Positions 4,562 through 15,511 of a stretch of DNA of 23,413 nt are shown one piece after another. Under the pieces are notes generated by a model. The model searched no databases and was not told where the DNA came from. It worked only from the letters and a program-made list of their open reading frames with translations. This DNA is from a virus. The stretch spans positions 1-23,413 of IMG/VR virus record IMGVR_UViG_3300024518_001296. One strand, 5' to 3'. The position numbers and the translations under genes are program-made. Within the stretch, counting starts at the first letter, position 1. Each line of letters begins with the position of its first letter.

Positions 4562-5419
4562 TTATAATCCACACATTCCTTCACACTCATTTTGCATCAG
4601 ATCCTTAAACAGTTCTCCCTGTCCAAGTTCCTCCGCAGTACTAAAATCAACATCACGCAACGGAATACGTTTAGCGTGTAAGAACCGTGCGCCTTGAAAT
4701 CTTCCTTCACCTTCTCGAAGTAAATCATCCACAACGCAAGCTTCCTCAAACTCTTCTGGAAAATTATGTTTTAAATCCCTCCACTCATTATCATTGTGAA
4801 AGGGACAACCAACACAGGCGCTCTTGACCAGAACCCTGTCTGGATAGTTTTCGGTAAACCACTTCAAGCAATCGCGCCGTGTCATTTCTTTTTCTAACAA
4901 CGGCCAACGGTTTGTGACCCATGAGTCGGCGTTTTCCTTAACCCGCATCATCTCATCCCTGGATATCCCTATCCACATCTCCACCATTAAATCTTTAGGC
5001 GTTCTCTGGCGTGGTTTAAGGCCGGCTAACTCACGAACCTTTTTGCGTATGGGTTTGAGTTTATATTCACTTGTGCATTGTCGTCGGGCCATTCCCTTGC
5101 TGCCGTCTTCGTTAAGAATAAAAAACGGTATGGCGGCAAAACTGTGCCCTGTCGTGTTGATGTTTGTTTCAAGGTCGTTCTTGATATTCCCACGCTGGAC
5201 GCGATAAACAGGAAACGATAGTTGCTGTTCGAGCCACTCGAGATGCTGGTACACGGACAATGGTTCCCAGCCCGTGTCAGCAAATACGGCGCAATCAGGG
5301 CGAGGCCCAATCTCACCTTTTTCGGCTTTCAAAGCCATAACAGAAGACTGAACACCAGCACCCAAACTAATCACTCGCAGGGAGGCATTTTCTACCGGAT
5401 TGAACCAATTATTTTCCAT
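4562..5419 (-). CDS. PAPS reductase / ATP-pyrophosphatase family protein (285 aa)
   Basis: Residues about 15-30 (RVISLGAGVQSSVMA) match the PP-loop that binds ATP in the adenine-nucleotide alpha-hydrolase / PAPS reductase superfamily. CTSEYK (Cys115) and CVGCPFHND (Cys202, Cys205) are cysteines typical of the phage versions, possibly binding an iron-sulphur cluster or zinc. Members adenylate or reduce sulphur compounds, and some (DndC) act in DNA phosphorothioation. The substrate of the phage forms is not known. In this operon it lies with a C5-methyltransferase-like gene, so a role in nucleic-acid modification is possible. The family call is firm; the role is inference. Confidence 0.85.
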   Translation of the reverse strand: MENNWFNPVENASLRVISLGAGVQSSVMALKAEKGEIGPRPDCAVFADTGWEPLSVYQHLEWLEQQLSFPVYRVQRGNIKNDLETNINTTGHSFAAIPFFILNEDGSKGMARRQCTSEYKLKPIRKKVRELAGLKPRQRTPKDLMVEMWIGISRDEMMRVKENADSWVTNRWPLLEKEMTRRDCLKWFTENYPDRVLVKSACVGCPFHNDNEWRDLKHNFPEEFEEACVVDDLLREGEGRFQGARFLHAKRIPLRDVDFSTAEELGQGELFKDLMQNECEGMCGL

Positions 5420-8287: not shown

Positions 8288-8318
8288 AGTATAAGCATGG
8301 ACCATGGTACACTGTCAA
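8288..8318 (-). promoter_or_regulatory. Promoter of the leftward operon with CATG palindrome in the spacer
   Basis: On the minus strand TTGACA (8318-8313) and TATACT (8293-8288) are 19 bases apart. Both hexamers are strong, although the spacing is longer than ideal. Three bases after the -35 box lies TACCATG-GTC-CATGC, an imperfect copy of the perfect palindrome found at the same place in the promoter at 12609. A repressor binding there would block polymerase. Confidence 0.6.
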
Positions 8319-8321
8319 ATG

Positions 8322-8393
8322 TTTAATCGGGGTCGGGTCGGGTTTAAATCGGGGTCGGGATCGGGTTTAAATCGGGGTCGGGTCGGGATCGGG
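8322..8393 (+). repeat. G-rich repeat cluster 1 (three tandem units)
   Basis: Three consecutive units begin with TTTAA(A)TCGGGGTCGGG and end with one or two more TCGGG or ATCGGG steps: 8322-8342, 8343-8365 and 8366-8393. There are ten runs of three or four G separated mostly by TC or ATC, well within G-quadruplex rules. The cluster starts four bases upstream of the -35 box of the leftward promoter, so its C-rich complement occupies about positions -40 to -115. Related clusters lie near 11.1 and 12.4 kb. Confidence 0.85.
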
Positions 8394-8400
8394 TCTGCAC

Positions 8401-8429
8401 AAAAAAGACCCCAGCTTGCGGCTGGGGCC
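8401..8429 (-). terminator. Intrinsic terminator of the 9475-8504 operon
   Basis: Read on the minus strand, CCCCAGC (8427-8421) pairs with GCTGGGG (8415-8409) around a five-base loop and is followed by a T tract (8406-8401). Two further hairpins lie between this and the stop at 8504: GAGCCGC/GCGGCTC at 8438-8464 and a GGGAG..GGGCG/CGCCC.TCCC stem at 8468-8500. Confidence 0.75.
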
Positions 8430-8503
8430 AGGTTTTCGAGCCGCTGCCAGGATCGGCGCGGCTCACAGGGAGAGGGCGACGATAATCCCGCCGCCCTCCC
8501 GCG

Positions 8504-8677
8504 TCAATCGTTAGAGGCGATCCGCTCTCTCAGTTCTTCGTCGTCATAAGCGCAGCAACAACTATCGCATATCCATTTGTCACCTATGACTTCGTGTGGC
8601 GAGTTGCGAGCGTCGAATACATCTTTGCACAAGTCGCACGTCGTATTGTCGCCATACATTGGATCATGGGTTTTCAT
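8504..8677 (-). CDS. Small zinc-ribbon protein (57 aa)
   Basis: The product begins MKTHDPMYGDNTTCDLCKDV. It carries CDLC (residues 14-17) and CDSCCC (37-42) spaced by 19 residues, a four-cysteine zinc ribbon, followed by an acidic helical tail. The ATG lies two bases after the stop of the preceding gene, and a purine-rich GGGGGCAGGGG stretch upstream can serve as ribosome site. It is last in its operon and followed by the terminator at 8401-8429. Confidence 0.72.
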   Translation of the reverse strand: MKTHDPMYGDNTTCDLCKDVFDARNSPHEVIGDKWICDSCCCAYDDEELRERIASND

Positions 8678-8679
8678 AA

Positions 8680-9216
8680 CTACGCCCCTGCCCCCTTGTA
8701 GATTGCAACTGCCTCTGATATCGAAACGTCGTTCAAGACAATTGCGTTCGGATACTTTTTAGCAATTACGGTGCGAATGTTAGAGTGCGATGGAGCTACG
8801 TTGTAGGTGTAGACCTTGCCATCATCAAAAATAGCGACCTTCTTTAGCATCTTCTTGACGTCTTTCATCGTCAACGCATTCTCTACCAAATCGCTTATAA
8901 GAACATCAGGGGATGTGTGAACCATTTCATCGTTACATTTCCATTTAGGTGACTCCATGCAAAATTTCGTTAGGGCGGATTGCGCGGGTGTCTGTTTGGT
9001 GACGACCTCGGTTCCCATCGTATTAGTAAACGTCGTTTCCACGCGCGCCAGTTCCTCGTCGTTCCAATGGAACTGTAAACCCCCTCCCCACCCATCTTCT
9101 ACGACGAACGCAACAAATTTGTTTGCCGGATCGTAAAGTTTGCATTCCCATCCGTAACCGTCGTGACCGTGAAAGCTTTTAATCGCTTTGACGCTGTATT
9201 CTTCTCTAGTAGACAT
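8680..9216 (-). CDS. Phage protein of unknown function (178 aa)
   Basis: The N-terminal part (SVKAIKSFHGHDGYGWECKL, then VVEDGWGGGLQFHW) resembles, from memory, a family found repeatedly in phages and without known function. It is beta-rich and has conserved-looking His, Trp and Gly residues. The start at 9216 is chosen because GGAGGGGG precedes it; the earlier ATG at 9258 lies in the upstream gene. It overlaps the upstream gene by 11 bases. The C-terminal half (ITMKDVKKML, SEAVAIYKGAGA) looks helical and Lys-rich. Confidence 0.78.
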   Translation of the reverse strand: MSTREEYSVKAIKSFHGHDGYGWECKLYDPANKFVAFVVEDGWGGGLQFHWNDEELARVETTFTNTMGTEVVTKQTPAQSALTKFCMESPKWKCNDEMVHTSPDVLISDLVENALTMKDVKKMLKKVAIFDDGKVYTYNVAPSHSNIRTVIAKKYPNAIVLNDVSISEAVAIYKGAGA

Positions 9217-9475
9217 TTTTGACCCCCTCCATATTGCGGATAGTGGTGTTGTTGGCACGATTAAATCCTATAACAGGCAAAGCGTGAGTCTTAACAATGC
9301 ACGTGGTCATAAACTTGGGCATGTCGCAATCTTCCTCAAGATATAATGTGTCGCCATCTCTGTAGGAAAATGCACTGAAATCATCCGGCTCCAGCCCTAT
9401 CTCAAAACAATCCGAAACAGGAACTTCTAGCCATCCGTGCGCTTTATCATGGTGGTGGGTGTATTCTTTTTGCAT
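9206..9475 (-). CDS. Conserved phage protein, HGWLEVP type (89 aa)
   Basis: HGWLEVPVSDC, DDFSAFSYRDGDTLYLEEDC and the following MPKF are the hallmarks of a short protein family I recall from many phages and mobile elements. No function is known. It is the first gene of a three-gene minus operon behind the promoter at 9508-9536. No strong ribosome site is seen before the ATG, although the distance to the predicted transcript start is about 25 bases. Confidence 0.8.
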   Translation of the reverse strand: MQKEYTHHHDKAHGWLEVPVSDCFEIGLEPDDFSAFSYRDGDTLYLEEDCDMPKFMTTCIVKTHALPVIGFNRANNTTIRNMEGVKNVY

Positions 9476-9496
9476 TTGATTATCCTTTAAAAGTTA

Positions 9497-9525
9497 TTGA
9501 CCATGGGAGTATATGGTAGTACTGT
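9497..9525 (+). promoter_or_regulatory. Rightward promoter, overlapped by the leftward one
   Basis: TTGACC (9497-9502) and TACTGT (9520-9525) are exactly 17 bases apart. The transcript would start near 9532 and lead into the gene at 9559, which has AAAGGTG before its ATG. Confidence 0.55.
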
Positions 9526-9536
9526 AGCAAGGTCAA
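9508..9536 (-). promoter_or_regulatory. Leftward promoter, overlapping the rightward one
   Basis: On the minus strand TTGACC (9536-9531) and TATACT (9513-9508) are exactly 17 bases apart. The start would be near 9501 and the gene begins at 9475. The two TTGACC boxes form an inverted repeat enclosing both -10 boxes, so the two promoters occupy the same 40 bases. Confidence 0.6.
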
Positions 9537-9558
9537 CAAGGTAATTTAAAGGTGTAAC

Positions 9559-9765
9559 ATGGAATACGAAATCAAAGATCAATGCCAAGAGTGTGAAGGC
9601 TTTGGAAAAATCGAACACCAGCGAAGCGAAACGCTGTTCTCAGTTTCGATTTGCCCCGAATGCGATGGTGAAGCATTTACCACGGTCCATGAAACATACG
9701 ACAGCATTCAAGATCTTCGCGCCGATTATCCAGATGCGATGGTTAAGGAAATGAAAAAGAGTTAA
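9559..9765 (+). CDS. Small zinc-ribbon protein, DnaJ-like motif (68 aa)
   Basis: CQECEGFGKI and CPECDGEA (residues about 9-38) form two CxxCxG knuckles like those in DnaJ. The remainder is acidic and helical. A ribosome site AAAGGTG precedes the ATG. The gene stands alone between the double promoter at 9497-9536 and a structured RNA that starts at its stop codon. It is the third protein in the window with this DnaJ-like motif. Confidence 0.8.
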   Translation: MEYEIKDQCQECEGFGKIEHQRSETLFSVSICPECDGEAFTTVHETYDSIQDLRADYPDAMVKEMKKS

Positions 9766-9937
9766 CTTTGAGGGAGTTGATGTGAGGCTAGCGTTGTGGT
9801 CATCAGGGGAAACCCCCTAAAATAGATATTCTGCCAGTTCGTTCCCTCAAAGTGGTTGGTATCTTTGCGAACAAGAATATCGAACAACGCAACGAAGATG
9901 CCCCCTAGCCATTATCGTGGTTAGGGGGTTTTCTTTT
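9765..9937 (+). ncRNA. Candidate structured RNA with its own terminator
   Basis: ACTTTGAGGGA (9765-9775) pairs perfectly with TCCCTCAAAGT (9843-9853). Inside lies AGGGG/CCCCT (9805-9818). Behind it, ATCTTTGCG (9861-9869) pairs, with a two-base bulge plus mismatch, with 9888-9899. The intrinsic terminator follows directly. GCGTTGT (9791-9797) is also complementary to ACAACGC (9884-9890), which would form a pseudoknot or an alternative fold. The region has no convincing gene. It may be an independent small RNA or a structured 3-prime end of the zinc-ribbon transcript. I do not recognise an RNA family. Confidence 0.5.
9901..9937 (+). terminator. Strong intrinsic terminator
   Basis: CCCCCTAGCCA (9901-9911) pairs over 11 base pairs (one G-T) with TGGTTAGGGGG (9918-9928) around a six-base loop, followed by a T-rich tract TTTTCTTTT (9929-9937). 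Confidence 0.88.
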
Positions 9938-10002
9938 GCCGTTCCATATATACAGGCGAAATGAAAAAAATGTTTTTGAAAATGAACTTTTGGACCTAAA
10001 AA

Positions 10003-10118
10003 AGTGTAAAAGTGTAACAAGCACTGAAAAACAGTAGCTAAGTTATTGAAATATACCAAAACTACTCGTAACACTACTCGTAACATGTCGTTACGTTTTA
10101 GGCTGTTTGGTTACACTT
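10003..10118. promoter_or_regulatory. Cluster of GTAAC motifs upstream of the small terminase
   Basis: The 250 bases between the terminator and the terminase gene hold no gene. They hold a perfect tandem 12-mer ACTACTCGTAAC (10061-10072, 10073-10084), a hairpin CGTAAC-ATGTC-GTTACG (10079-10095) followed by TTTT, plus GTGTAAC (10012-10018) and GGTTACAC (10109-10116) in the opposite sense. Five copies of one motif in about 105 bases suggest a regulator-binding array, an origin-like iteron block or a terminase-binding site. I see no unambiguous promoter here. Confidence 0.5.
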
Positions 10119-10194
10119 CACTAGCCGAGGACGTCCTTGAAATGATGGGAGACTAGGGTTAGTTTTGAAAAACGCTGTATATAGGGGCAACCAG

Positions 10195-10779
10195 ATGAAA
10201 AGACGAATTGATACCAAAGCAGAAGAAATTGAGGACTCTTACGGCAGGAAACTGACCAACCGTCAAAAGACTTTTGCAAGACACTTTGTTGATGGCACGC
10301 ACTCAAATGCTGAGTGCGCGAGGAAGGCCGGATATTCCGACAAGAATGGAATTGCGAAGATCCAAGCGCATAAACTTTTGAACCCCAAATATTTTCCGCA
10401 CGTTGCGGAGTATGTTTTGGAACTGCGGGAGGAACGAGAACGAAAATATGGCGTCACCCTTATGGGGCAACTAAAACGGCTAAGAGATCTTTCCTTGGGC
10501 GCCGAAGAAACCGGACAATTCTCTGCCGCCATAAATGCTGAAAAAACAAGATCTGCTTTGGGTGGTTTAACTACTGACAGGCGAGAGACAAATCACTTCC
10601 ACGCTATCGAAAATATGAGCCGCGAAGAAATAGAAACCCGACTCACTGAATTGAGAAAGTCACACCCAAACGTCTTTGATGCAGATTATGAGGTAGTAGA
10701 TGGTGCAAAAACCGGAGGCAAACTTCTGGAAGAAACTAAGGGAGAAGATGCCGAAGAGTTGGCACACCACACGAATTGA
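10195..10779 (+). CDS. terS: Terminase small subunit (194 aa)
   Basis: LTNRQKTFARHFVDGTHSNA followed by ECARKAGYSDKNGIAKIQAH and KLLNPKYFPHVAEYV is the terminase_2 pattern: an N-terminal helix-turn-helix DNA-binding domain (about residues 20-65 from this start) and a following oligomerisation helix. The protein recognises the phage packaging site and hands DNA to the large subunit. The ATG at 10195 has AGGGG eight bases before it; a TTG at 10165 would add ten residues and lacks support. The last 80 bases overlap the VRR-NUC gene. Unusually, more than 3 kb with two strand switches separate it from the large subunit. Confidence 0.85.
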   Translation: MKRRIDTKAEEIEDSYGRKLTNRQKTFARHFVDGTHSNAECARKAGYSDKNGIAKIQAHKLLNPKYFPHVAEYVLELREERERKYGVTLMGQLKRLRDLSLGAEETGQFSAAINAEKTRSALGGLTTDRRETNHFHAIENMSREEIETRLTELRKSHPNVFDADYEVVDGAKTGGKLLEETKGEDAEELAHHTN

Positions 10780-11200
10780 AAACCGCTATGGCGGCGGCGT
10801 TCCAGATGTTCATGTGTGCGCGGAAGGCATACCATTTTGGATAGAACTAAAAACAACCAACACTAACCGCGTAAATGTATCAGCCCATCAAGTCGCTTGG
10901 AATTTCGCCTATTGTCAGTCAGGCGGCGTAAGTTTTTACCTTGTTAAGGCCCTCTCATCCTCCAACCTATATTTGTTTGACGGGGTCCATGGTCGGGGGT
11001 TAATGGAACATGGCCTCAAGTCGGGCCGCTCGGGGTCTGGGGAGGTCGGGTCGGGGACCATTGTGCCTTGTCTTTGGTCGGGGGACAGTTGGTCGGGGTT
11101 GCTGGACCACATGATCGGGGTCGGTCGGGATCGGGTCGGGCCGGTCGGGTCGGGTTCGGGATCGGGTCGCCCCAGCAGCTGGCCTGGTCCGGGGGTATGA
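10700..11200 (+). CDS. VRR-NUC-type nuclease with repeat-derived C-terminus (166 aa)
   Basis: Residues 8-95 fit the VRR-NUC family (PD-(D/E)xK superfamily): RIENRYGGGVPDVHV (Asp36), FWIELKTT (Glu49, Lys51) and SAHQVAWNFAYCQSGG. Such enzymes cut branched or nicked DNA, and phage versions are often linked to replication or packaging. The usual phage domain ends near YLFDG. From about residue 96 the frame runs through G-rich repeat cluster 2 and reads low-complexity Gly/Ser/Arg (SGSGEVGSG, VGSGSGSGR). The true product therefore probably had an earlier end that was overwritten. The start lies 80 bases inside the small-terminase gene with GAGG before it. Confidence 0.8.
   Translation: MVQKPEANFWKKLREKMPKSWHTTRIENRYGGGVPDVHVCAEGIPFWIELKTTNTNRVNVSAHQVAWNFAYCQSGGVSFYLVKALSSSNLYLFDGVHGRGLMEHGLKSGRSGSGEVGSGTIVPCLWSGDSWSGLLDHMIGVGRDRVGPVGSGSGSGRPSSWPGPGV
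10983..11167 (+). repeat. G-rich repeat cluster 2
   Basis: Irregular GGGTCGGG, GGGATCGGG and GGTCGGGG steps cover this stretch. They are densest at 11114-11167, where at least eight G runs follow each other with two- or three-base spacers. The plus strand is again the G-rich one. The block occupies the end of the VRR-NUC gene and is followed by two strong hairpins. Confidence 0.8.
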
Positions 11201-11203
11201 AAG

Positions 11204-11263
11204 ACCCCGGAGGGGAGAAAGGAAAACCCTCCGGGGTAAACCTGGCCGGCACTGGGCCAGGTT
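11204..11263. terminator. Double hairpin between convergent genes
   Basis: ACCCCGGAGGG (11204-11214) pairs perfectly with CCCTCCGGGGT (11227-11237). AACCTGGCC (11239-11247) pairs perfectly with GGCCAGGTT (11255-11263). Read on the minus strand the first is followed by CTTTCAT, a weak T tract. It could terminate the leftward transcript of 12322-11305 or transcripts from either side. Confidence 0.55.
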
Positions 11264-11304
11264 GCGGCGCCTACTCGATGTGTCAACAACCGGCGCCGAA
11301 ATTG

Positions 11305-11583
11305 TCACTTAACAGAAAACCCTTCCTTGTTTCGTCGGTTCAATTCTTCCTTGGCTTGCTCGAGCCTTAATTCTTGCACTGAATCATTCAGCCAGGAATG
11401 CATGGATAAAGCTTTAACAATGTTTCTCAATTCCCATGACGGTTTTCGGTGTAAATTTTGCATTAGTTTAACTTTCTCTTTGGTTTTTGTTTTACCACAC
11501 AAGCCAAAAGTTTTAGGACCATTCCGATACTGAGGTAATTTTGTTTTGTATTGATGCGAAAATCTGGAAGCGTTTTTATACAT
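11305..11583 (-). CDS. Basic protein of unknown function (92 aa)
   Basis: The start lies immediately after the stop of the GP88-like gene (gap of one base), so it is cotranscribed. The product is Lys/Arg rich with a helical, charged second half (SVQELRLEQAKEELNRRNKE) that may form a coiled coil. The N-terminus (MYKNASRFSHQYKTKLPQYR) is strongly basic, which would suit nucleic-acid binding. No family is recognised. Confidence 0.65.
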   Translation of the reverse strand: MYKNASRFSHQYKTKLPQYRNGPKTFGLCGKTKTKEKVKLMQNLHRKPSWELRNIVKALSMHSWLNDSVQELRLEQAKEELNRRNKEGFSVK

Positions 11584-11584
11584 C

Positions 11585-12322
11585 TCAATAATCCCTCACC
11601 ACAAAACCGCTTGTGTCGTTTTTGGCTTTCTTGCCTTTGGGATCTAGTCCCACAATAACGGGTGACGGATCTAAGTGTCGCAAGTCATGTTCCGTTCCGT
11701 CAATCACGCGATGGCCTAAGTACGTAGCCGGCTGACCTTTACCAAATACTACCGCGACATTGTGGCCGTTAGCTAAAACGTGGATTGCCTCGTGCTCGTT
11801 AGTTTCGGAGCGGCTGAATGTTAGATGGTAATTGCTTGGCCTATTAGGATTAAGCATTCTTTGCATGTTTTTGGTATAGTCTACAAATTGAACTTCTGGA
11901 AATTGTTCTGGCAATGTTTGGCCGTCGCGGCCTTTGATATACTCGAAGCTTATGTCTGTTGATCCATTAGGACGAATTGCAAGCCTTTTGTTTTCGCGTT
12001 CTGCCTTGCGTGATAGCAATTCAACATGATGCGACATTTCACGCATAAAAGCTTGCCTATCGGATCTAAAGTATTTTGCTTTATTGATGCGACTTCTACG
12101 GGTATCGTTCATTCCGTTTTCAAGATCTTTGACCATTTCTGCCCTGCCGCTATACATTCCTAGACATAGATCACGACAACCCGCGCTTGAATGTGGGCAT
12201 AAATTGCCAACGCCACCCGTCGTATGAGGTGCCATGTAATTGATGCCATTTAGCCAACCGTACTTATCGGCCTTAATAGCCTTCGGGCTATCGGTACTGA
12301 ACAACCTTTTAAACTTAACCAT
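11585..12322 (-). CDS. Phage GP88-like protein (245 aa)
   Basis: The segment NYMAPHTTGGVGNLCPHSSA, continuing GCRDLCLG, has cysteines at about residues 42, 49 and 53. It matches the pattern of the Gene product 88 (GP88) domain seen in mycobacteriophages and other phages, whose function is not established. The cysteine arrangement would suit metal or iron-sulphur binding. Later segments (RLAIRPNGSTDISFEYI, VQFVDYTKNMQRML, HLTFSRSETNEHEA) look like alternating strands and helices of a barrel. The ATG at 12322 has AAAAGGGA before it and a promoter at 12354-12383; a start at 12370 would lie in the promoter. Confidence 0.72.
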   Translation of the reverse strand: MVKFKRLFSTDSPKAIKADKYGWLNGINYMAPHTTGGVGNLCPHSSAGCRDLCLGMYSGRAEMVKDLENGMNDTRRSRINKAKYFRSDRQAFMREMSHHVELLSRKAERENKRLAIRPNGSTDISFEYIKGRDGQTLPEQFPEVQFVDYTKNMQRMLNPNRPSNYHLTFSRSETNEHEAIHVLANGHNVAVVFGKGQPATYLGHRVIDGTEHDLRHLDPSPVIVGLDPKGKKAKNDTSGFVVRDY

Positions 12323-12353
12323 TATAAAATCCCTTTTAATTGTTGACGGGTTC

Positions 12354-12383
12354 AGAATACCACCATTCACGGGATAGTGTCAA
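12354..12383 (-). promoter_or_regulatory. Promoter of the GP88-like operon
   Basis: On the minus strand TTGACA (12383-12378) and TATTCT (12359-12354) are 18 bases apart. Transcription would begin near 12347, 25 bases before the ATG at 12322, and the leader carries the ribosome site. G-rich cluster 3 begins eight bases upstream of the -35 box. Confidence 0.65.
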
Positions 12384-12390
12384 ACAATTC

Positions 12391-12458
12391 GGGTCGGTCG
12401 GGTCGGGTTAAAATTTGCCCAGCTGGGCCGGTCGGGTCGGGGTCGGGTCGGGGTCGGG
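12391..12458 (+). repeat. G-rich repeat cluster 3
   Basis: Two blocks of GGGTCGG-type steps, 12391-12407 and 12425-12458, flank a TTAAAATTT stretch and the palindrome GCCCAGCTGGGC (12417-12428). The second block alone has six G runs of three or four bases separated by TC. The G-rich strand is plus, as in the other two clusters. Confidence 0.82.
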
Positions 12459-12470
12459 ATATGACGAATT

Positions 12471-12494
12471 ACCGCCGGCGGCGGCGCCGGCGGT
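12471..12494. other. Perfect GC-rich hairpin after cluster 3
   Basis: ACCGCCGGCG (12471-12480) and CGCCGGCGGT (12485-12494) pair perfectly around a four-base loop. No T tract follows on either strand, so simple intrinsic termination is unlikely. No gene is seen in the 176 bases from here to the start at 12671 apart from the promoter and palindromes at 12609-12649. Confidence 0.7.
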
Positions 12495-12608: not shown

Positions 12609-12638
12609 TTGACGCTATACCATGGATCATGGTACAAC
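12609..12638 (+). promoter_or_regulatory. Promoter of the 12671-13439 unit
   Basis: TTGACG (12609-12614) and TACAAC (12633-12638) are 18 bases apart. The -35 matches 5 of 6 positions and the -10 about 4. The predicted start is near 12646, 25 bases before the ATG at 12671. Confidence 0.5.
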
Positions 12639-12649
12639 ATGTATGTTGT
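12618..12649. promoter_or_regulatory. Two adjacent palindromic operators
   Basis: TACCATG-GAT-CATGGTA (12618-12634) is a perfect interrupted palindrome inside the promoter spacer. ACAACAT-GT-ATGTTGT (12634-12649) is a second perfect palindrome over the -10 box and start point. Both are placed where a dimeric repressor would block transcription. Confidence 0.55.
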
Positions 12650-13858: not shown

Positions 13859-15322
13859 ATGTTAAATGCGCCTGATGACATTGTACGTGAGGTTTTGGCT
13901 TTGGAGGAGGCGAAGAGCACTTTGGACCTTCGCCAACGGGCCAAGGACGATTTCATGGTATTTGTGAAGCATGTATATGATGGGTTTATAGAGGGTACGC
14001 ATCACAAGCAGGTTGCGGAGAAGTTTGAGAAGTTGTCCAAGAACCCCGGTTCACGGATCATTGTCAACATGCCGCCTCGTCATACGAAGAGTGAGTTTGC
14101 TTCTTATTTGTTACCGGCGTGGTTGATAGGGAAGAATCCTGAGTTAAAGATTATTCAGACGACGCATACGGCTGAGTTAGCTGTTCGGTTTGGGCGTAAG
14201 GTGAGGAATCTTATGGGGATGGAGATATACCGGCAGGTTTTTCCTGAAGTGGAGCTTCGAGCGGATTCCAAGGCTGCTGGCCGTTGGGAGACGGGTCAGG
14301 GGGGAGAATATTTTGCGGCGGGTGTGGGTGGTGCGATTACTGGCCGTGGTGCGGATTTATTGATTATTGATGATCCGCATTCGGAGCAGGATGCGTTATC
14401 GGAGACGGCTTTGGAGAATGCGTATGAGTGGTATACGTCGGGTCCTCGCCAGCGGTTGCAGCCTGGTGGTTCGATTGTTGTGGTAATGACGCGGTGGTCG
14501 CTGAAGGATTTGACGGGGAAGTTGATCAAGGCACAGGCTTCGGACGTGATGTCTGACCAGTGGGACATTATAGAGTTTCCGGCGATACTGCCGAGTGACA
14601 ACATCCTTTGGCCGGAGTTCTGGAAGAAGGATGAGTTGTTAAGGGTCAAGGCTTCGTTGTCTTTGAGCAAGTGGAATGCGCAATGGCAGCAGAATCCTAC
14701 GGCGGAAGAGGGGGCGATTATCAAGAAGGAGTGGTGGAACAAGTGGGAGGATGAGACGATACCGCCGGTGAGTTACATTATGCAGAGTTACGATACGGCG
14801 TTTAGTAAGAAGGAGACGGCGGATTACAGTGCGATTACGACGTGGGGTGTGTTTCAGCCGGAGGAGGGTGGTGCGGATAATATTGTGTTGATGGATGCGA
14901 AGCGTGGCCGCTGGGACTTTCCTGAATTGAAGGCCAAGGCGATGGAGGAGTATGAGTATTGGGAGCCGGACATGGTATTGATTGAGGCCAAGGCTACGGG
15001 TACACCGCTCACGGACGAGTTACGGCGCATGGGGATTCCGGTGGTGAATTACACGCCTTCGAGGGGAAACGACAAGCACACGCGGATGCATATGGTGGCA
15101 CCGATGTTTGAATCTGGAAAGGTTTGGGCCCCGGAGAAGCGTTTCGCGGAGGATGTGATAGATGAATGTGCTGCATTTCCTAATGGCGACTATGACGATT
15201 TCTGTGATAGTATGTCGATGGCGCTTATCAGATACCGTAAAGGCGGTTTTGTTCATCTTGACAGTGACGAGGAAGACAGCGAGTCTAGCTTTTCCTTACA
15301 TGCTTCGAGACAATATTATTAA
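13859..15322 (+). CDS. terL: Terminase large subunit (487 aa)
   Basis: The packaging motor: an N-terminal ATPase and a C-terminal RNase-H-like nuclease. MPPRHTKSE (71-79) is the Walker A-like motif and LLIIDDPHSE (167-176) the Walker B with the catalytic acid. VVMTRWS (208-214) fits the coupling motif. The nuclease carboxylates appear as YDTAFSKKETADYSA (Asp312), VLIEAKATG (Glu376) and DDFCDSMSMAL near 450-460. Length and motif order match the family well. No strong ribosome site precedes the ATG; a weak TATTCA/TATATT promoter-like pair lies at 13805-13833. Codon use differs from its neighbours: almost all Lys are AAG, and TTG, ACG and GAG dominate. Confidence 0.95.
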   Translation: MLNAPDDIVREVLALEEAKSTLDLRQRAKDDFMVFVKHVYDGFIEGTHHKQVAEKFEKLSKNPGSRIIVNMPPRHTKSEFASYLLPAWLIGKNPELKIIQTTHTAELAVRFGRKVRNLMGMEIYRQVFPEVELRADSKAAGRWETGQGGEYFAAGVGGAITGRGADLLIIDDPHSEQDALSETALENAYEWYTSGPRQRLQPGGSIVVVMTRWSLKDLTGKLIKAQASDVMSDQWDIIEFPAILPSDNILWPEFWKKDELLRVKASLSLSKWNAQWQQNPTAEEGAIIKKEWWNKWEDETIPPVSYIMQSYDTAFSKKETADYSAITTWGVFQPEEGGADNIVLMDAKRGRWDFPELKAKAMEEYEYWEPDMVLIEAKATGTPLTDELRRMGIPVVNYTPSRGNDKHTRMHMVAPMFESGKVWAPEKRFAEDVIDECAAFPNGDYDDFCDSMSMALIRYRKGGFVHLDSDEEDSESSFSLHASRQYY

Positions 15323-15340: not shown

Positions 15341-15511
15341 ATGGTTATAGTTGAGTGGATAATGGATCGTATGAAAGAACCTTCAAGCTATGCCGCTGCT
15401 GGCGGTGCTATAATAGGCTTGGGTATTATCTTTTCACAGCCCCTGCTTATATGGGCAGGTATTGCGGGTGGTGGTATAGGTTTTATTCTAAAAGAAAAGA
15501 ACATCATTTAG
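15341..15511 (+). CDS. Small membrane protein (56 aa)
   Basis: The product begins MVIVEWIMDRMKEPSSYAAA and continues GGAIIGLGIIFSQPLLIWAG before a second glycine-rich hydrophobic stretch and a KEKN tail. It thus has two short glycine-rich hydrophobic segments with charged ends, typical of a small inner-membrane protein. AAAAGG precedes the ATG. It sits between the large terminase and a structural-looking gene. A holin-like role is possible but unproven. Confidence 0.7.
   Translation: MVIVEWIMDRMKEPSSYAAAGGAIIGLGIIFSQPLLIWAGIAGGGIGFILKEKNII

Follow-up and report, generated by a model that had tools for sequence, protein, structure and literature searches.

The window, that is the whole stretch of 23,413 nt that was analysed, represents part of a tailed-phage genome and comprises the genes of a terminase small subunit (TerS) and a phrog_2165 protein, leftward genes, a terminase large subunit (TerL) and a portal (Table 1). 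The phrog_2165 protein, for which a Pfam search gave no match, is presumably VRR-NUC-like and is called so here. Among these genes lie three G-rich clusters, each an array of the pentamer TCGGG.

Table 1. Repeat arrays, neighbouring signals and genes of the window
Feature	Position	Strand	Details
TCGGG array A, 10 units	8327..8393	+	between leftward terminator and leftward promoter-like site
Leftward intrinsic terminator hairpin	8407..8429	-	14 nt 3' of array A; 9 pairs, T6 tail
TerS	10165..10779	+	Terminase_2 / phrog_51
phrog_2165 protein	10700..11200	+	phrog match; overlaps TerS; array B in 3' end
TCGGG array B, 15 units	10993..11166	+	in coding sequence, through 3' part of VRR-NUC-like gene
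GC-rich hairpin	11205..11236		39 nt 3' of array B; CCCCGGAGGG...CCCTCCGGGG
GP88-like protein	11585..12370	-	PF17338
Promoter-like site, TTGACA-18-TATTCT	12354..12383	-	leftward, adjoins array C; consensus match only
TCGGG array C, 8 units	12389..12458	+	upstream of leftward GP88-like gene; near-identical in L002
GC-rich hairpin	12472..12493		14 nt 3' of array C; CCGCCGGCG...CGCCGGCGG
TerL	13859..15322	+	strand common to all arrays
Portal	21331 onward

The preliminary description had recognised three clusters of one common design, G-rich on the plus strand throughout and each followed by a hairpin within about 45 bases, and all three points were confirmed. GGGTCGG occurs 15 times in the window for 1.2 expected and a maximum of 5 in dinucleotide shuffles, and its complement CCGACCC once. 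Canonical G-quadruplex (G4) motifs number 4 on the plus strand and 0 on the minus strand, with 0.22 expected over both strands from 100 dinucleotide shuffles, and the polarity is conserved in relatives. The hairpins start at the distances given in Table 1; among relatives, a hairpin on the 3' side is no more than a tendency, a folding z below -2 being found for 39% of the 3' flanks, 20% of the 5' flanks and 12% of the background. The view that the clusters belong to no known repeat class also holds. An Rfam search of the arrays matched no family, and a blastn search of one array against phages, with the low-complexity filter on, gave no match. The arrays are apparently undescribed in the literature searched.

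Relatives were collected as several hundred contigs from TerL scans completed by a pattern scan, and make up a large group of marine phages, mostly uncultured. One contig of 57,823 bases (L109/G001) matches the window with 2 mismatches and no gaps over 23,413 bases, is the same phage, and has the same arrays, array A included, so that they are no artefact of a single contig. Two contigs about 91% identical to the window (L158 and L002) keep the arrays with a changed copy number, array A being shortened in L158. In six roughly full-length contigs (about 55-58 kb), the arrays keep to a single zone some 4 kb long and to one strand; G002 has one weak exception of three units, and in G006 a cluster of three units lies outside this zone.

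In a first set of TerL loci, all 78 TCGGG arrays shared the strand of TerL. With more contigs the proportion was 147 of 149, the two exceptions (L090, L119) being one shared array of a different unit; the 147 arrays are not independent events, as their flanks form 32 DNA-similarity families, one of them very large. Essentially all TCGGG arrays of the relatives are upstream of TerL, in several pieces that together span 2.5-4.5 kb, and an unbiased search for 5-mer arrays detected 140 upstream of TerL in 0.99 Mb and 4 downstream in 1.48 Mb. The arrays are thus real, conserved at syntenic positions in the TerS-TerL zone, and functional-looking. No such arrays were detected in the short stretch examined upstream of TerL in CRP-901/902 and CRP-810, whose TerL is about 35% identical. 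A search for hosts by TerL among genome contigs and a tRNA search in L205-L210 gave none. We also observed, in a contig without detectable TerL of this family (L101 / L474-L476, G014), a single small TCGGG array set among repeats of TTTTGGCAGACT.

Within the arrays (151 distinct ones, 1,068 units), TC stands before 96.7% of the GGG runs, and forms of TCGGG with one letter changed are rare; the arrays were defined by TCGGG, and therefore their ends are anchored while the interior runs are free. The spacing of units is mostly 5-7 and reaches 25, without phasing to the helix. Beyond the zone, TCGGG shows no enrichment and no consistent strand bias. T7-type primase sites (GGGTC) were considered and rejected: it is TCGGG rather than GGGTC that stays invariant, and the primase is of the AEP type. 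The G-run spacing that was said to fit very stable G-quadruplexes is present in the window itself, where the predicted G4 motifs have at least four G runs separated by short loops and G4Hunter scores are high, up to 2.3. Elements acting through such a structure, by R-loops, fork pausing or transcription blocks, are nevertheless a very improbable explanation: the TC before the G runs is nearly invariant yet unneeded for a G-quadruplex, so that conservation extends to the letters flanking the runs, and arrays of GCTTG occupy the matching sites in a sister clade. Since sister clades have non-G4 words in the same places, G-quadruplex formation is not the shared property. The arrays resemble the predicted G4 sites of dsDNA viruses (PMC8036883) in being G-rich tracts on one strand, and differ from them by a word conserved beyond the G runs and replaced by non-G4 words in sister phages.

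TCGGG arrays were absent from the cultured relatives in which they were sought, the TerS-TerL zone showing other repeats instead. In the Pelagibacter phage HTVC027P, GCTTG arrays occupy the end of the VRR-NUC homolog and gaps separating leftward genes. In the group of this phage, 51 of 51 GCTTG arrays are on the TerL strand; in HTVC027P TerS is on the opposite strand, and the array polarity still goes with TerL. GCTCG repeats are found in the zone of 023Pt_psg01 and GGCCG/CCGTG repeats in that of the DSL-LC04 group, and the HTVC023P clade has only longer AT-rich direct repeats at these places. The unbiased search showed TCGGG, GCTTG and GGCCG to be each tied to their own clade. This clade-wide replacement of the word at the same places suggests a working signal rather than simply G-quadruplexes. 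As a separate observation, the zone of 023Pt_psg01 (L202) contains five dispersed GGGCCCACCC-type repeats, at 15417, 16230, 16987, 17770 and 17825.

Chi and KOPS are short G-rich words whose orientation matters, distributed genome-wide and set by the host. The arrays likewise consist of a short G-rich word in fixed orientation, but they are confined to one zone and clade-specific. A Chi-like signal for recombination or against degradation, read in one orientation near the packaging ends by a helicase-nuclease, would agree with a word that is short, polar, spacing-free, repeated and close to the terminase genes, and reading as a single strand would account for the polarity. Such a signal is improbable, given that the word lacks genome-wide enrichment and strand bias and that HTVC027P and HTVC023P share one host strain but not the word, which makes a host-set word unlikely.

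The word is also imposed on coding sequence. Array B has 15 units where 1.5 are expected from the protein and codon usage, and 0 antisense. With expected counts computed in the same way, the 3' part of the VRR-NUC gene contains 520 TCGGG for 53 expected and 11 antisense (41 sequences), the word occurring in all three frames, and in the GCTTG clade the end of this gene has 127 copies of the clade's word for 19 expected and 1 antisense. In the TCGGG group without VRR-NUC, the excess is found in the TerS gene (40 for 2.6 expected). These expected counts are if anything too high because the amino acids there may be array-shaped. The arrays might instead be minisatellites produced by neutral slippage, or recombination linkers where exchangeable early genes meet conserved late ones, since copy number varies between near relatives and the zone borders a replaced replication module. 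This explanation is hard to reconcile with the strong coding excess, with a word and polarity common to several sites per genome and with a word replaced at all sites between clades, and we give it very little credit.

Transcription control, also put forward in the preliminary description, is unlikely because the polarity ignores the neighbouring genes and some arrays lie in coding sequence, others just past terminators. In G004, for instance, the arrays at 38011 and 38587 directly follow rightward terminators and therefore are probably little transcribed. Similar evidence bears on an RNA element of the rightward late transcript, in which UCGGG or GCUUG repeats would be bound by an RNA-binding or antitermination protein. 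The polarity is that of late transcription, the flexible spacing agrees with an RNA target, array B lies within a rightward gene and the 3' flanks are the more structured; yet many genes of the zone are leftward, some arrays come directly after rightward terminators and no Rfam family matches. We thus consider an RNA element rather improbable, and the indifference of polarity to local gene direction, with some arrays beyond terminators of either direction, favours a DNA target.

Another reading is a replication origin, made of initiator iterons or of single-strand primase start sites on one strand. Window-type phages encode an AEP primase, a UvrD helicase, a SNF2 helicase and PolA, and polar, spacing-free arrays suit single-strand recognition. 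Sequence-specific AEP start sites are documented: the NrS-1 primase-polymerase recognises TTTGGTTA / GTG, short single-strand words (PMC8718748). SPP1, moreover, has dispersed direct-repeat origins, one of them inside a gene (PMC6316719). The comparison with two incomplete contigs, G019 (47 kb) and G020 (43 kb), weighs against this reading. Their TerL is 62-63% and their portal 54-55% identical to the window type (G020 capsid, 64%), and several structural proteins of their group are closer to the window type than to the GCTTG phages. Both have TCGGG arrays beside TerS with unchanged polarity. AEP primase, UvrD, PolA and SNF2 were searched for in these contigs and none was found, which is no proof of absence as the contigs are incomplete; G019 does have a replacement set, consisting of a Toprim/RecA-type primase-helicase, a Cas4-like exonuclease and a DEAD-type helicase. 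By this comparison the arrays go with the structural and packaging side, being kept with TerL and portal where the replication module is replaced. The short word and the AEP primase of window-type phages recall the NrS-1 start sites; as a difference, TCGGG persists in phages where no AEP primase was found.

An early-gene initiator common to both TCGGG groups was sought and not found; the best shared early protein was rejected as it resembles the Hydrolase_2 cell-wall hydrolase of the window. Where GC skew switches at the zone, it does so with gene direction, and HTVC027P, with rightward genes on both sides of the zone, shows no switch there, after which control the GC-skew minimum was dropped as origin evidence. 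We therefore regard an origin as unlikely, if less so than the Chi-like or RNA readings. Two further observations concern these genomes. The primase of L207 (15635-17209, minus) has a Pfam match to AEP-TOTE, the archaeo-eukaryotic primase of TOTE conflict systems, and adjoins Pam3-like proteins. In G019 (L466), the zone after TerS contains, by the TCGGG arrays, several copies of the palindrome CCGAACAATTGTTCGG, whose arm has TTCGG at its end.

The preliminary description had listed replication, packaging or recombination as possible roles. The list is still right and packaging is now favoured from it, the function being unproven. A packaging-start region is supported by the TerS-TerL position, by the TerL polarity despite an inverted TerS and by the independence from replication genes, and the arrays may be a working signal, most likely for starting DNA packaging. 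As a plausible though tentative model, we propose that the arrays are recognised at the DNA level, belong to the packaging module and together form an extended pac-like region. A trans-acting factor of the packaging or late module, which may be TerS itself or a TerS-TerL complex, would read as DNA the short strand-polar word (TCGGG in the window) that recurs across the TerS-TerL zone. Such a reader is needed because separate sites share the word and all change it between clades. The factor would load on many weak, same-direction sites; loading would mark the phage DNA for packaging and orient the process toward TerL and the structural genes. A broader and more doubtful possibility is a clade-specific one-strand address code, in which each clade's own pentamer arrays would label the TerS-TerL zone for a fast-evolving phage factor; all sites would then switch word together, with position and polarity fixed and the overlapping coding sequence bearing the word.

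The nearest model for the arrays appears to be the headful pac of SPP1/SF6, which is located at the TerS gene, is partly coding, has direct repeats varying between relatives and sets the packaging start (PMC6316719, PMC4737164). The arrays share the position at TerS, the partial overlap with coding sequence and direct repeats that differ between relatives. They differ in that copies of a 5-mer may number 20 or more, in 3-5 arrays over kilobases, strictly polar and with a clade-wide word. They lie in or beside TerS and upstream of TerL, except in G040, where TerS adjoins TerL and the arrays are about 3-10 kb away. Contig starts vary between genomes, which fits permutation and equally assembly breaks.

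The main weakness of the packaging model is a lack of correspondence between the DNA-binding domains of TerS and the word. Among the TCGGG phages there are two very different groups of TerS, one of them no nearer to the other than to the TerS of GCTTG phages, and a comparison of TerS helix-turn-helix sequences with the word found no co-variation of the recognition helix. This lack is not fatal, since the SF6 TerS binds pac weakly and with little sequence preference (PMC4737164). The spread in several pieces over kilobases, unlike compact pac sites, the distance from TerS in G040 and the solely AT-rich repeats of the HTVC023P clade also count against the model, and irregular spacing with many units 5 bp apart is awkward for helix-turn-helix proteins on duplex DNA.

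Phages of the HTVC023P type rank with the most abundant of the ocean (PMC10149686). Such a polar repeat signal, defining a part of the genome, bending the neighbouring coding sequence and switching its word between clades, would offer a new handle on how these phages mark their own DNA. Direct testing is possible because one branch is cultured (HTVC027P on strain HTCC1062).

A second dispersed motif, ACCATGG / CATGGTA, often ACCATGGNNCATGG, was seen in the window at 8294-8312, 9498-9520 and 12622-12640. In the zones of six genomes ACCATG occurs 39 times for 11 expected and CATGGTA 13 times for 1.75 expected, in or near promoter-like sites, and the motif is possibly an operator. The window also includes a phosphoadenosine phosphosulfate reductase-like auxiliary gene (4562-5419, phrog_424). 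Finally, at 1035-1442 a SNF2 helicase ORF (plus) overlaps a Pam3 gp32-like ORF (minus) by about 400 nt, and one of the two starts may be wrong.
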